A DNA stretch of 64,000 nt from Candidatus Avelusimicrobium intestinale. Lineage in GTDB: Bacteria > Elusimicrobiota > Elusimicrobia > Elusimicrobiales > Elusimicrobiaceae. A program made the translations under genes and the position numbers. Positions 18,058 through 56,316 of the stretch are shown piece by piece (within the stretch, counting starts at the first letter, position 1; each line of letters opens with the position of its first letter). Under the pieces are notes generated by a model that saw only the letters and a list, made by a program, of their open reading frames with translations, was not told the DNA's origin and ran no database searches. Location of the stretch: assembly GCA_902765225.1 (NCBI GenBank), contig CACWYV010000003.1:62001-126000 (forward strand). The letters run 5' to 3'.

Positions 18058-19587
18058 TTATGGTTCCAACGGGTTAAACCAGTTTCTAAATCTAGATTTG
18101 AGAACAGGATCCGTTGGTTTTTCTCCGGCGGATGGGTCCATGTCGTGTTTCAAAAAGAGTTCTTGGGTTTGGGAGTCCAGGGGTTCCTCCGCAATCTCAT
18201 AGGATGCCAATATCACATCAAAGGCCGGTACGCCAATAGAAGGTACGGGTGAGGTAAGGTCGGCCCGGAAATCTTCTAAGAGGAGGCGAAGGGTTTCATA
18301 AGGGCCTGCTCCTTGCAGGGATACTGCGGGCAGTTCGTACCGGGCAAGTTTATACACACGTAAGGTAACCTCCCACTTGTCTGCCAAGTGACCTAAGAAC
18401 AAATTGATATTCATGCCGGCTTCTTGTACTAGGAGATTTAACACCTCCTTTTGTACAGAAGACGGTAGGCACATCCAATACTCTGGCAGATCACTTTTGA
18501 ATACAGAATTGACATCTACGTGGTATTGGGTAATCATTTCCCGCAAGAAATTCAAGGTTTCTTCATAGGTCGCTTTACGGATGGGGTAACCTAAATCACT
18601 GGCTACCCGCGTAAACAAAGCATTAAAGAGATCCGGGTATTGCTGTAGATTTTTTTCCGCCAATTCACGGGCCATATCACGCAGATTGTTCAGCTGGTAG
18701 CTCATCATGCTTTTACGGGATATGGAGAAAATCGGGTTATGCGATTCTTCCGCGGGCTCTATTCCTTTTGAAATGCCTTTGACAAGATCGTTCCGGTCCC
18801 GGTTAAAACCAAAATTTTTCATTACTTCGTATACCGGTCCGCCATGTTCCACGATGGCTTCCTTTTCTTTTTCGGAAAATACAGCATCCAGACGTACTCC
18901 ATGCTCTGTTAAGAACCTTAGGCCGGTTTCATCGCCTTCCCAGGCCATGTTACGCACGAGGTCGTCCGGTCGGATTTGGCCGGGAGCCTGTTTTAAGTCA
19001 GGTTGTTCAAAAACAGTTCGGAAATCCGCGTCTTTTTTGGCCAAAAAACTTAGGGCCTGATATCTTTTTGTCAGTGTTAAAAACAATACGTCTTGGTCGG
19101 TTATTTTTTGGGCGAAATCAGGAATACGTTGGGCTAATTTTTCCAGCTCGGCCGGGTTTTCCCGGGCTAGAATTTGCGTAATCAGAAGCCCCTTTTGCGC
19201 CCACGCGGATTGGGAGACAGATTCGGTTCCCCGAACCGTAGGAAGTTGGGTGCTACGAGGCGTGTGTGACCCTGCCGAAGCGGGGTTACTCAGTAAGTCT
19301 GCCAGAGTCATCCGTTGCTCTAGGGCAGTATATAAGTCCAGTCCGTACGGATTATGTTCCGGGGTAACCGTGTTGTTGGCAAAAGTGACGTGATTAAACG
19401 GTTTTCCGGTGATATTTCGCATGATTGACCAAGGCAGTTCTATTGGAACGGTAAATTGGGTTGCCCGACGGGAAGCCTGGGTGAGTTTTAGGGTACTTTT
19501 GGCTATTTCCCCGCCTTGGGCATAACCCGTAACCGTCAGTATGCATAAACAAACCGGAGTGAGGGCGAATTGAAAAATACGTGTCAT
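18058..19587 (-). CDS. Secreted helical-repeat (ankyrin-like) protein of unknown function
   Basis: 509 residues from ATG 19587, which has AGGAG upstream; an in-frame start 33 nt earlier lacks one. Signal peptide with likely cleavage after TGYAQ. The rest is alpha-helical; segments such as DETGLRFLTEHGVRLDAVF and GPVYEVMKNFGFNRDRN look like weak ankyrin units. It belongs with the secreted proteins at 24703 and 44815 in style and length, and shares their upstream palindrome-promoter module. No enzyme motif seen. Confidence 0.75.
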   Translation of the reverse strand: MTRIFQFALTPVCLCILTVTGYAQGGEIAKSTLKLTQASRRATQFTVPIELPWSIMRNITGKPFNHVTFANNTVTPEHNPYGLDLYTALEQRMTLADLLSNPASAGSHTPRSTQLPTVRGTESVSQSAWAQKGLLITQILARENPAELEKLAQRIPDFAQKITDQDVLFLTLTKRYQALSFLAKKDADFRTVFEQPDLKQAPGQIRPDDLVRNMAWEGDETGLRFLTEHGVRLDAVFSEKEKEAIVEHGGPVYEVMKNFGFNRDRNDLVKGISKGIEPAEESHNPIFSISRKSMMSYQLNNLRDMARELAEKNLQQYPDLFNALFTRVASDLGYPIRKATYEETLNFLREMITQYHVDVNSVFKSDLPEYWMCLPSSVQKEVLNLLVQEAGMNINLFLGHLADKWEVTLRVYKLARYELPAVSLQGAGPYETLRLLLEDFRADLTSPVPSIGVPAFDVILASYEIAEEPLDSQTQELFLKHDMDPSAGEKPTDPVLKSRFRNWFNPLEP

Positions 19588-19629: not shown

Positions 19630-19697
19630 ATTGTAAAAATGTTTACCGTTTTGACACAAGGGCCTTTGGACCTAGACGCATCTAGGTCCTCGCCCCC
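19630..19697 (-). promoter_or_regulatory. Palindrome-promoter module, copy 1
   Basis: On the minus strand: palindrome GGACCTAGA-TGCG-TCTAGGTCC (19668-19689), then AAAGGCCC immediately followed by -35 TTGTGT (19654-19659), 18-bp spacer and -10 TACAAT (19630-19635). The left arm beyond the core has decayed. Same layout as copies at 44715, 53046 and 55239. It precedes the secreted gene starting at 19587. Confidence 0.7.
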
Positions 19698-24600: not shown

Positions 24601-24672
24601 GGACCTAGGAGGAAGGCCCAGACAACTTTAGGTCCAAAGACCTATGGACATTCCGGGGGACGCTATTATAAT
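24601..24672 (+). promoter_or_regulatory. Palindrome-promoter module, copy 2 (degenerate)
   Basis: Starts GGACCTAGG, later TAGGTC-CAAA-GACCTA (24629-24644), a 6-bp palindrome of the family's core words in altered order. It is followed by -35 TGGACA (24645-24650), 16-bp spacer and -10 TATAAT (24667-24672). Lies between the divergent rimP promoter and the ankyrin gene. Confidence 0.55.
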
Positions 24673-44699: not shown

Positions 44700-44714
44700 T
44701 ATGCAAAAATCTCT

Positions 44715-44781
44715 GGGTCCAAAGACCTAGAGGGGCTTGGGCCCTTTGACCCTTGTATAGGCTTCTTTAAATTATTACACT
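44715..44781 (+). promoter_or_regulatory. Palindrome-promoter module, copy 3 (imperfect)
   Basis: GGGTCCAAAGACCTAG...CTTGGGCCCTTTGACCC (44715-44752) pairs as GGGTC-AAAG/CTTT-GACCC. -35 TTGTAT follows directly (44753-44758), 17-bp spacer, -10 TACACT (44776-44781). Because frr has its own terminator, the palindrome is not needed as one. Confidence 0.65.
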
Positions 44782-44814: not shown

Positions 44815-46053
44815 ATGAAGAAATTGGTATGTCGGATGTTGTTAGTTGGTTTGTGCTTGGGGGCTCTTTCGGTAACGGAAGTACGAGCGCAGAATTGGAT
44901 GAAAGCCCTGACGAAGACGGCGAGGGGGGCGGTTGTGCGAAACCCGTTTGTAGAGACAACGATATTCGTGTTTGGAAAAGCGGGAGTGTCACGCACGCGT
45001 GCGTTGGAGAAGGTAGTCACGGATTATTATGCCGGTTTACCCGAACGTCCCGTATCAACGATAGAAAATTGTCTTCTTAATGCGCGGAAAATTGCGGCTT
45101 CCCATCCCGGTTTATTTACTCCAGAGCAACTTGCGCAGTTGCAGAAATTGGAGTTGGATCCCGTTGCGCTCCCGAGTACGATCCCGCAACGATACGAGCC
45201 TCCTATCACCCTAGAGTCTTTCTTGGAACGAGTCGCGCGGGAAGCACAAGTTCCTGCAAAGGAGCAATTGTTGCAAGCGGTAGCGGCAGGCGATTTGGAA
45301 GGAGTTAAAGCGAGTTTTCAGAACGGGGCCAGGATAGTTAACCAAGAGGAATTTAATCAATTTGTTAAAGCGGCCTTGCCTCATCCGGATATTGTGGAAT
45401 ATGTGTTCACTCTCCCCGGAGTTCAAGATTACATATCGAACCACATAAATTTGTCTATCTATGCGGAAGATGCCATTATGGGTGGTTATCGACAGACTGC
45501 TGCCAAGTTGATGAAAAGCTGGACGTTGTGGCGGTTAGAGGAGGGAGCAAGCCCCTCAGCTATTCTTAACGGTATGGAATCTTTCCTAAGGATGGCCTTG
45601 GATTCCAATCAACTGGTAATAGCGGGGGATTTGATTGACGGATTAAGTGATCGAATTCCGCAGGTGTTGCGGGCCTATCTAACCGATAGATCGTATAAAT
45701 TAACTGAGGAGAATTTGATGTTCTTATTACGGAACGGCGGAGATTCTCCTTCATTGTTCCGAGACGAATTAAAAATTTTTAATGAAAAGCTTCGCATAGT
45801 GAACGAGAGAGGGTCTATTCCTGCTATAACTGTTGCGGAAGTGGAGGCGAGTTTCCAATACCAGGCTCTACATAAATTAGTTGCTATTCCTGATTTACCT
45901 GCCCGGTTTGGATTAACGGCGGTAGAATATGCCAAAAAATGTGCCGAATCGCCGGGTATTGTTAGAGAGCCGGATTGGGAAGTGACGAATGAATGGTACC
46001 AGATGTTGTTGCAAATGAGGCTAATTGATGCCCCTGGGTTCCTTCTCGATTAG
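44815..46053 (+). CDS. Secreted helical protein of unknown function
   Basis: 412 residues. Signal peptide (1-25, VRAQ end). Alpha-helical throughout; QLLQAVAAGDLEGVKASFQNGARI (about 150-173) and PDIVEYVFTLPGVQDYI read like degenerate ankyrin units. Resembles the secreted proteins at 18058 and 24703. Shares their promoter module. Its codon use is slightly more AT-rich than its neighbours'. No domain recognised with confidence. Confidence 0.78.
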   Translation: MKKLVCRMLLVGLCLGALSVTEVRAQNWMKALTKTARGAVVRNPFVETTIFVFGKAGVSRTRALEKVVTDYYAGLPERPVSTIENCLLNARKIAASHPGLFTPEQLAQLQKLELDPVALPSTIPQRYEPPITLESFLERVAREAQVPAKEQLLQAVAAGDLEGVKASFQNGARIVNQEEFNQFVKAALPHPDIVEYVFTLPGVQDYISNHINLSIYAEDAIMGGYRQTAAKLMKSWTLWRLEEGASPSAILNGMESFLRMALDSNQLVIAGDLIDGLSDRIPQVLRAYLTDRSYKLTEENLMFLLRNGGDSPSLFRDELKIFNEKLRIVNERGSIPAITVAEVEASFQYQALHKLVAIPDLPARFGLTAVEYAKKCAESPGIVREPDWEVTNEWYQMLLQMRLIDAPGFLLD

Positions 46054-53039: not shown

Positions 53040-53045
53040 AAAAGG

Positions 53046-53112
53046 GGGCCAAAAGACCTAGATCTGTCTAGGTCTTTTGGCCCTTGTGAAAGCTACAAAT
53101 ATTACTTACAAT
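53046..53112 (+). promoter_or_regulatory. Palindrome-promoter module, copy 4 (perfect)
   Basis: GGGCCAAAAGACCTAGA-TCTG-TCTAGGTCTTTTGGCCC (53046-53083), 17-bp perfect arms. -35 TTGTGA (53084-53089) starts on the next base, 17-bp spacer, -10 TACAAT (53107-53112). Leader to ATG 53234 is about 115 nt, the longest of the five. May also mark the 3' end of the preceding gene, but no T-tract follows. Confidence 0.75.
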
Positions 53113-53233: not shown

Positions 53234-54211
53234 ATGAAAAAAATACTTGTTGCCGTAAATGTCTTCCTGCTAGCGTGTACTTTTTCTTTTGCTTCTGAAA
53301 AGAGTAATTTGGACGCTAAGTTGGAAGCCGCTATTGCTGCCGCTGCCAAACCTGTGGGAATTAAAAAGGAGCCCCGGCAGTATAATTTGTCTCTGACCGC
53401 CCAGGAAGGGGTGTGGGGAAAAGAAGATAACGTTTTTACAGCCGAACCCGCCGATACACGCCAAAACACGACTATGAGCAACACGTGTAACGTGTATGCG
53501 TTGAGTGACCGTTGGGCAATTACTTCGGCGCAGTGTATACAAGATATATTCTCGCACAATTTCCGCTCCGTGGATGAGGCGCATGTGCGTGTGTACCGGC
53601 TTGAAGATTCTTCCAAAAAAGAGGCCAAGCCAGCCGATCGTTTCTTGGCCTTGGTGGGAAAAAACGGTATTATGAAAACGCGCCACCAACGGATTGCTTC
53701 CAACGGGAATATCATGTTGGTGTGGCACCCGAACGGGGAATATGCCGGCCCCTTTACCAATGTATTGGCCATGGAGGAGTACCAAAAATTAACTTCGCTC
53801 ATGAAATCTTTCTTCTTTGTGGGCGGTCGTATCCTCGTTACAAAAAAGTTTCCGCATAGCCGTTCCTTAACAGTGAAATCTATTCCTCAAGAGAACAATT
53901 TCCGCCTCTGCCGTACCTCTTTCCCGACCAACAACGGATTTTACGGACAAGCGGCTTCAGGCCTGTTGGGTTTTGATAAGGCCGGTGATGGATTCCTGAC
54001 CGGATTAAATGCGGGGGTAGTGCAGTGGAGTCCTATGGCGGCGAAAATTTATTCGCAATATGATACTTCCTCGTCTAATGTATGGAACGGTTTGACGAAA
54101 GATGACTTGATGTTCATTAAACAAACCGTCCAAGCCATTTATCCCGAAGATTGGGAACAAGTCAAAAAGCACTTGTTTTACAAGGTGACCGATTCTCCGT
54201 TCTTCCGTTAA
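53234..54211 (+). CDS. Secreted trypsin-like pseudoprotease, copy B
   Basis: 325 residues. Signal peptide (1-20). CNVYALSDRWAITSAQC (85-101) matches the Cys42-Cys58 region with His57 replaced by Gln100. SNGNIMLVWHPNGEYAGPFTNVLAM aligns with copy A; the Asp102 position reads Asn. GQAASGLLGF...FLTGLNAGVV is the GDSGGP region and may keep the Ser. C-terminal DLMFIKQTVQAIYPEDW...LFYKVTDSPFFR matches copy A (DLEFIQKTVLQHRPQDW...LFYNQTHTPYFR). Probably a binding protein rather than a protease. Own promoter module. Confidence 0.78.
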   Translation: MKKILVAVNVFLLACTFSFASEKSNLDAKLEAAIAAAAKPVGIKKEPRQYNLSLTAQEGVWGKEDNVFTAEPADTRQNTTMSNTCNVYALSDRWAITSAQCIQDIFSHNFRSVDEAHVRVYRLEDSSKKEAKPADRFLALVGKNGIMKTRHQRIASNGNIMLVWHPNGEYAGPFTNVLAMEEYQKLTSLMKSFFFVGGRILVTKKFPHSRSLTVKSIPQENNFRLCRTSFPTNNGFYGQAASGLLGFDKAGDGFLTGLNAGVVQWSPMAAKIYSQYDTSSSNVWNGLTKDDLMFIKQTVQAIYPEDWEQVKKHLFYKVTDSPFFR

Positions 54212-55142: not shown

Positions 55143-55167
55143 ACCCGGTTTTGAATACTGCACCAAA

Positions 55168-55196
55168 CACCCCGGGCTTTTGCCCGGGGTGTTTTT
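55168..55196 (+). terminator. Terminator after the Bax-inhibitor gene
   Basis: CACCCCGGGC/GCCCGGGGTG, 10-bp stem, 4-nt loop, then TTTTTG. Confidence 0.9.
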
Positions 55197-55238
55197 GTAT
55201 GCTGTTTTAATTGCCCTTCGGAGTCACACGGACCGTAG

Positions 55239-55306
55239 GGGCCAAAAGACCTAGGCAGGCCTAGGTCTTTTGGCCCTTGTAGCGCAAGAGAGAAAAAAAA
55301 CATAAT
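55239..55306 (+). promoter_or_regulatory. Palindrome-promoter module, copy 5 (perfect)
   Basis: GGGCCAAAAGACCTAGG-CAGG-CCTAGGTCTTTTGGCCC (55239-55276), 17-bp perfect arms differing from copy 4 by a compensated pair (A-T to G-C) next to the loop. -35 TTGTAG (55277-55282) abuts it, 18-bp spacer, -10 CATAAT (55301-55306). A proper terminator lies upstream, so this is not one. Confidence 0.75.
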
Positions 55307-55365: not shown

Positions 55366-56316
55366 ATGAAAGTAAGTAAACGAACAAGTATCATAGCGTT
55401 GATTCTGGGCATATGTTTTATGTCTACTGGGGTCAACGCCGCAGATAGAGTCCCGGCAGGTAAAAAAGCGGTTACTCTATCCACCGAAACCTTAAGCCGT
55501 ATTATCACGCCGATGATTCAAAACGAAACACCGTCGCAATGGAAGCGGCCCGGCTATTTATCGCAGAAACAATGGGATTGGCTCGTGTCCGTTGCTAACC
55601 AAAACAAAAAAAACTATTTCATCCGTGATTATATGGAGTTTTTGAGCCATTTGGATATAGAGGATCCTTATCAATTTTCCGATATCCTTCCTCTCATAGA
55701 AAAATTGGATGCGGGCTATAAGCACTATGTAGAGATTTTGCAACGGAATTCGTTAGAAATTTCGTCAGATGAACAAAAAGCTTATGAAATGGTGCGCAAC
55801 GTTTTGTACAAAAAATATTCTTCCATTACTAATTTGACACCTGTACAGCGGGAATTGGCTCTGTTTTGCCCCAATATGAGTGCCAAACAGGTCCAGCAAT
55901 TGATGCCGGCAATTGCTGCGGATGCGCAATCATATGAGAAGGTTACCGTGAGATGTTACCCGAAGGCGGAATTAGTAACATATCGGGACAGAAATTATCC
56001 CGAATTTCATAATCCGATGTTGGGAACGACTGTCAGACAACAGGTGTTTACAAACAAAGTATTTGTGATACCTTTTGATATGGATGTTAACGGACACCAA
56101 AAAACCGACAAACTGGTTGTATATGATGCTAATACCGGGGAAAGAGAGGAAGAAATTGCCCTTTCTGGAGCGGAGGGTTATATCACACTTTTAACCCATC
56201 TGACCAACCCGGAAACAGAAAGAATTCGTTTCACTACTACGAATGCTTTTTATGTTGAACAATGGGGCGTATCCCTTGGGAACCCCACGGTGTATGGTTA
56301 CAACCGTAAGCGCTAA
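55366..56316 (+). CDS. Secreted protein of unknown function
   Basis: 316 residues. Signal peptide (1-25, ending VNAAD). An N-terminal helical half (to about 170), then a beta-rich half with C168 and C197 and the string TVRQQVFTNKVFVIPFDMDVNG. ACAGGAG ribosome site. Driven by promoter module copy 5. No family recognised. Confidence 0.75.
   Translation: MKVSKRTSIIALILGICFMSTGVNAADRVPAGKKAVTLSTETLSRIITPMIQNETPSQWKRPGYLSQKQWDWLVSVANQNKKNYFIRDYMEFLSHLDIEDPYQFSDILPLIEKLDAGYKHYVEILQRNSLEISSDEQKAYEMVRNVLYKKYSSITNLTPVQRELALFCPNMSAKQVQQLMPAIAADAQSYEKVTVRCYPKAELVTYRDRNYPEFHNPMLGTTVRQQVFTNKVFVIPFDMDVNGHQKTDKLVVYDANTGEREEEIALSGAEGYITLLTHLTNPETERIRFTTTNAFYVEQWGVSLGNPTVYGYNRKR

Follow-up and report, generated by a model that had tools for sequence, protein, structure and literature searches.

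Promoters with paired dyads in the window

The window, which is the whole stretch of 64,000 nucleotides analysed here, is part of a 1.41-Mb genome in 7 contigs (G000) and holds five promoters that are each preceded by a palindrome (Table 1). A reading made from the sequence only had described these as copies of one CCTAG-centred palindrome leading directly into a -35 box, and all five were found, exactly or to within a few bases, at the positions that it gave. The arms at 53046 and 55239 are indeed perfect, with lengths of 17 and 18 bp instead of 17 bp in both, and the palindromes at 44715, 19656 (minus strand) and 24601 are imperfect. The CCC-TTGT junction is present in four of the five, while the site at 24601 has TATGGACA instead, and -10 boxes follow at all sites after spacers of 16–18 bp. 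Likewise, an ORF with a signal peptide is located downstream of every site, as had been claimed. When the palindrome core GACCTAG-N6-CTAGGTC was scanned over the own genome with up to two mismatches, 20 sites were found and none with the reversed pattern, which places the palindromes beyond chance.

Table 1. Dyads, promoters and downstream genes of the five sites in the window
Feature	Position	Strand	Basis
Site 1, distal dyad GGGGCCAAAAGACCTA	53045..53060	+	sequence, dyad scan
Site 1, proximal dyad TAGGTCTTTTGGCCCT, abuts -35	53069..53084	+	sequence, dyad scan
Site 1, promoter: -35 TTGTGA, 17 bp, -10 TACAAT	53084..53112	+	9/12 consensus matches
Site 1, gene: secreted protein, 325 aa, signal peptide, no Pfam/NCBIfam family	53234..54211	+	
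Site 2, distal dyad	55238..55253	+	sequence, dyad scan
Site 2, proximal dyad TAGGTCTTTTGGCCCT	55262..55277	+	alignment, dyad scan
Site 2, promoter: -35 TTGTAG, 18 bp, -10 CATAAT	55277..55306	+	
Site 2, gene: secreted protein, 316 aa, signal peptide, no known family	55366..56316	+	
Site 3, distal dyad TGGGTCCAAAGACCTA	44714..44729	+	dyad scan
Site 3, proximal dyad TGGGCCCTTTGACCCT	44738..44753	+	dyad scan
Site 3, promoter: -35 TTGTAT, 17 bp, -10 TACACT	44753..44781	+	
Site 3, gene: secreted protein, 412 aa, no known family	44815..46053	+	
Site 4, proximal dyad TAGGTCCAAAGGCCCT	19659..19674	-	dyad scan
Site 4, distal dyad, degenerate (half-site GGACCTA)	19683..19697	-	sequence
Site 4, promoter: -35 TTGTGT, 18 bp, -10 TACAAT	19630..19659	-	
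Site 4, gene: secreted protein, 509 aa, no known family	18058..19587	-	
Site 5, distal half-site AAGGCCCA	24607..24620	+	sequence
Site 5, proximal dyad TAGGTCCAAAGACCTA	24629..24644	+	dyad scan
Site 5, promoter, variant junction: -35 TGGACA, 16 bp, -10 TATAAT	24645..24672	+	sequence
Site 5, gene: secreted ankyrin-repeat protein, 335 aa	24703..25710	+	

A 16-bp dyad abutting the -35 box

The repeated unit turned out to be smaller than the CCTAG-centred palindrome, which consists of two dyads placed back to back. The working unit is a 16-bp dyad, WRGGYC-N4-GRCCYW, with 6-bp half-sites and a 4-bp A/T-rich spacer, and a scan of the window for it with at most one mismatch gives the five promoters and only two further, weak matches. 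The promoter-proximal dyad TAGGYCYWWWGRCCC adjoins the TTG(T/C) of a sigma-70-type -35 box to about one base, and TAGGTC-N4-GRCCC-TTG is also found alone or apart from the palindrome (L016, L021 and L027). The consensus of 100 genus sites, aligned on the dyad, is TAGGYC-YWWW-GRCCC-TTG(T/C) followed by a -10 box; the spacer to this box measures 17 bp in 68 of the sites and 18 bp in another 22. Only the GG.C....G.C core and TKG were prescribed by the search pattern behind these sites; lying outside it, the A/T-rich spacer, the T or C after TTG and the -10 box emerged from the alignment. CCCTTG, touching the -35 box, is the best-conserved stretch of the element. With the -10 box set as -12 to -7, from which the start position follows, the centre of the dyad falls at about -42.5, and this is the class-II position, that is, a dimer site near -41.5/-42.5 that touches the -35 box. 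In about 19 of the 100 regulon promoters an ATG is located 4–9 nt past the -10 box and the Shine-Dalgarno sequence is weak or absent (for example L018, L019, L050, L053 and L112), and these mRNAs would therefore be leaderless.

A second dyad, scored as at least 8/10 for GGYC-N4-GRCCYA, lies upstream in 74 of 130 sites (57%), compared to 1.6% when the upstream sequence of the sites was shuffled. The gap between the two dyads is 8–9 bp in 63 of the 74, corresponding to 24–25 bp centre to centre, and the bases within it are unconstrained. Of 47 dyad pairs, 11 have mirror-identical N4 cores, with a permutation mean of 8.0. Combinations of T with A and of C with G are modestly favoured between the two halves of the proximal dyad (Fisher p 0.009). 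T occurs with G as frequently as with A, however, and strict pairing is thus not kept. Since the dyads do not covary like the arms of a hairpin, the CCTAG palindrome represents two adjoining binding sites and no conserved hairpin.

Genes downstream of the element

A sequence model of the element combined with pattern scans gives about 37 sites in the own genome, and at nearly all of them an ORF encoding a Sec signal peptide begins within approximately 30–250 nt. Signal peptides were called by a hydrophobicity heuristic and reading by eye, with no trained predictor, and on this basis such an ORF follows all but two or three of the 37 or so sites of the own genome and, in the genus, about 92 of 99, compared to a baseline in the window of 15 of 59 genes passing a similar heuristic. 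Five SPase-I-type genes of the window have the motif in front of them; its five lipoprotein-type genes all lack it. The proposal of a secretome regulon with its own operator thus finds agreement in both the genome-wide and the class-wide scans. Many copies away from promoters had been named as the finding that would speak against it, and such sites are rare exceptions only, namely G000:C2:94086 and perhaps C2:137226, which lack a -10 box and a secreted gene. The clearest of them (L138, G000:C2:94086-94127) is a convergent dyad-like pair, ATAGGTCCTTTGGCCC ... GGGGCCAAAAGTCCTATA, with no secreted gene near. Two other regulon promoters precede shortened ORFs, one with a stop shortly after the signal-peptide stretch (L033, G000:C2:118228-118288) and one stopping after 56 codons (L044, G000:C4:121090-121145), and both are probably decayed secreted genes with an intact promoter. 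The first of these sites is also counted with the exceptions in the own genome.

The majority of the regulon products have no Pfam or NCBIfam family. Recognisable among them are weak reprolysin/M6-like metalloproteases with the motif HExxHxxGLxDQY, an M20/PepT-like peptidase, of which a relative in genome G030 (L116) retains the element, and ChaN/Tiki-like, ankyrin, REC-like, 5'-nucleotidase and Endonuclease I proteins. A search of genome contigs with the secreted PepT-like protein gave no match. The theme of these products suggests a role in scavenging of peptides and nucleic acids.

Several of the genes are arranged in groups. Three paralogous metalloprotease-like secreted proteins (L034, G000:C2:134000-144000) and three paralogous ChaN/Tiki-like secreted proteins (L029, G000:C1:31000-41000) are encoded in tandem arrays with one element per gene, and a divergent pair of secreted genes (L037, G000:C4:176500-181500; L007) has back-to-back copies of the element in the common intergenic region. 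One secreted regulon protein in G030 (L106, the ORF in frame 0 behind the site) contains a P-loop stretch reminiscent, on inspection by eye, of a zeta-toxin-like kinase. In some relatives the gene next to the element is instead a short conserved ORF of about 50–70 aa without signal peptide; there are two kinds of these (L022 and L070; L017 and L069), and the second is located upstream of a secreted repeat protein.

Distribution in Elusimicrobiota

A strict 19-base pattern was scanned over 295 Elusimicrobiota genomes with the reversed pattern as control, which gave 4 matches in total. The element is not confined to the genus: other genera of the family have it as well, and one or a few sites are kept by further families within the class. 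In the genus it was found in each of the 58 genomes sampled, with 1–23 sites per genome and none for the reversed control, and it is present in both genomes of g13 (9 and 18 sites), in 10 of 16 genomes of g12, in all five genomes of f7/g22, and at about one site in 22 genomes of family f2. No strict-pattern sites were found in f15, a large Endomicrobia-like family that we infer to be Endomicrobia. Most of the f2 and f7 sites that were read retain the distal dyad, the -35 and -10 boxes and the signal-peptide gene, and the conserved target in f2 is a secreted Endonuclease I. A strict pattern was also detected in MAGs of Elusimicrobiaceae that came from cattle rumen and sheep colon. Across 85,000 species genomes it was found in three Elusimicrobiota records and at one acidobacterial position, which has no signal-peptide gene and is probably a chance match. 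Being present in other families of the class, the element predates the family or has spread within the class.

A probable operator for an activator, and other explanations

The element is probably a class-II operator for a dimeric helix-turn-helix activator. In this reading, a dimer would bind the proximal 16-bp dyad through the WRGGYC half-sites, next to a weak sigma-70 -35 box (TTGT or TGGT), and at many sites a second dimer would occupy the second dyad 24–25 bp upstream. The two bound dimers would recruit RNA polymerase, and the Sec-exported, mostly orphan proteins, including metzincin-type proteases, the M20 peptidase, ChaN/Tiki-like and ankyrin proteins, Endonuclease I and 5'-nucleotidase, would be induced together, probably for scavenging of extracellular peptides and nucleic acids.

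The sequence-only reading had left it open whether the operator serves an activator or a repressor. An operator is strongly supported, and since the dyad is centred at about -42.5 next to a weak -35 box, activation appears the better supported of the two modes and is rather likely. An unlikely alternative is repression, with RNA polymerase blocked at the -35 box until a nutrient or a signal from the host relieves it. This would also fit a dyad touching the -35 box, which is a site of repressor action too, and operators of repressors are frequently dyads. The -35 boxes, however, are weak (TTGT, TGGT) and show no drift to TTGACA, as in activator-dependent promoters, and the position of the proximal dyad together with that of the second site is the pattern of class-II activators. 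Much less probable is an alternative sigma factor with an extended promoter whose -35 region includes GRCCCTTG. The high conservation of CCCTTG in contact with the -35 box could be explained in that way, but the -10 box is a plain TATAAT at 17 bp, and neither a two-fold dyad with a 4-bp A/T core nor another dyad 24–25 bp upstream resembles a sigma recognition element.

The earlier suggestion of a REP- or MITE-like mobile hairpin that carries a -35 box, and was selected where secreted genes gained a promoter, has become very improbable. The copies in the own species are long palindromes with nearly identical arms, as expected from such a repeat, but the two dyads do not covary, the sequence of the gap between them is not conserved, L016, L021 and L027 have proximal dyads outside a palindrome, hardly any copies are found away from promoters, and the dyad-promoter unit is kept in other families of the class; neither a promoter-independent dispersal nor a conserved hairpin is thus seen. 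That the palindrome is a terminator of the upstream gene, or a hairpin of the leader RNA, is the least credible of these explanations. At 53046 the upstream ORF ends 7 nt ahead of the palindrome, which has a T-rich tail on the minus strand. On the gene strand, however, the stem runs into TTGT with no T run, at 55239 the upstream gene is followed by a separate ordinary hairpin (55165-55194), and the element is located upstream of the -10 box and would hence lie outside the mRNA. A search with Rfam covariance models detected only tRNAs and no match to the element, which also argues against an RNA hairpin.

Candidate regulators

As the dyad consists of two 6-bp half-sites with a 4-bp spacer, the activator proposed above is expected to be a dimeric helix-turn-helix protein. 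A regulator of the NarL class might be the binder, a suggestion that falls somewhat short of probable, and the best candidate, put forward tentatively, is a NarL/FixJ response regulator at G000:C4:15387-16073. In an alignment to DevR/DosR its recognition helix KTIKN retains the residues equivalent to K179, K182 and N183 of DosR. It is found class-wide and is common to f2 and f7, and its operon also encodes a dCache sensor kinase, a receiver-kinase hybrid and Tad-pilus-like proteins, the latter assigned by eye and without Pfam match. GerE-type (NarL/FixJ) regulators are usually present in two copies per genome in nearly every motif-bearing genome tested, and none were found in three f15 genomes. 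The candidate also occurs in numerous genomes of f7 and f8 that hold few sites or none, and searches did not detect it in G253 and G274, a pair of f2 genomes that do have a site; G274 is rated 99% complete. The Tad-pilus-like genes of its operon have no motif, and no dyad was found in scans beside either of the two response-regulator operons, which gives no sign of autoregulation. The second NarL-type regulator (G000:C1:361856) has NTVHV at the contact positions, without the K/K/N residues, and was not seen in two f7/g22 genomes tested; it is the less likely binder.

Other regulator families were considered and rejected. The own genome encodes no protein with an HTH_Crp domain of the CRP/FNR type, and weak HTH_Crp hits in the genus are mostly to a LexA-like winged-helix/S24 protein. 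No GntR domain proteins (FadR/DasR-type, with GGTC half-sites) were found in eight genomes of the family. The LexA-like protein is unlikely to recognise GGYC-N4-GRCC because the boxes upstream of its own gene are tandem TATAGAAC repeats. In one locus per relative (L122-L136) the Ala-Gly cleavage bond of this protein is replaced by Cys-Gly, and the direct tandem repeats upstream, TATAGAAC-N4-TATAGAAC, constitute a different kind of SOS box.

Comparison with known systems

LexA/SOS boxes, GAAC-N4-GTTC, have the same 4-4-4 geometry as the dyad. The DosR-type box has the consensus GGGACTWWAGTCCC, whereas the element reads RGGYCYWWWGRCCC, with an equal frame and a difference at the fourth position, which is Y/R in the element. 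DosR of Mycobacterium tuberculosis is reported to contact bases through K179, K182 and N183 (PMC4082495), the residues kept in the candidate regulator. Its promoters have one or more closely packed boxes, the proximal one overlapping the -35 box (PMC3029386), and one target probe contains AAGGCCTTTGGTCC (PMC12919924); closely packed GG.C...G.CC dyads of 14–16 bp, the proximal over the -35 box, are thus a common feature. In contrast, the targets encode secreted proteins here and are dormancy genes in Mycobacterium, the phyla are unrelated, and the sensor kinase encoded next to the candidate carries dCache instead of haem-GAF.

ComA, a NarL-family regulator of Bacillus subtilis, binds upstream of the RNA polymerase site to two hexamers that form an inverted repeat around a 4-nt spacer, and has a second related site nearby (PMC4797271). 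The arrangement is similar to that of the dyads, but the hexamer is TTGCGG compared to WRGGYC here, and the second ComA site is a direct repeat. The PorX-PorY-SigP system controls type IX secretion components in Porphyromonas (PMC4800418) and is likewise a two-component system over a protein-secretion function, but it uses an ECF sigma factor and has the secretion machinery as target, whereas here the cargo genes share a sigma-70-like promoter with dyads.

Meaning for the Elusimicrobiota

The promoter element is real and deeply conserved, and apparently undescribed. Within the limited range of literature searched we found no description of it and no cis-regulatory elements for the phylum Elusimicrobiota, for which few or none appear to have been described. 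A putative undescribed regulator, perhaps a DosR-like two-component protein, probably turns on a secreted digestive toolkit. More speculatively, a DosR-like response regulator older than the families of the class Elusimicrobia, with its gene beside those for Tad-pilus-like proteins, could be the master switch of the accessory secretome, its targets having expanded from single ones, such as a secreted Endonuclease I, to dozens in gut Elusimicrobiaceae; if so, the targets in the latter would be fast-evolving orphan exported proteins. Most proteins exported by these reduced gut genomes have no known family, and the common operator brings them together in one co-regulated programme, supplies a list of candidate secreted proteins for each genome and narrows the question of the controlling signal to a few regulators. 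If such a master switch exists, one 16-bp dyad would reveal the secreted toolkit of the bacterium from DNA alone.
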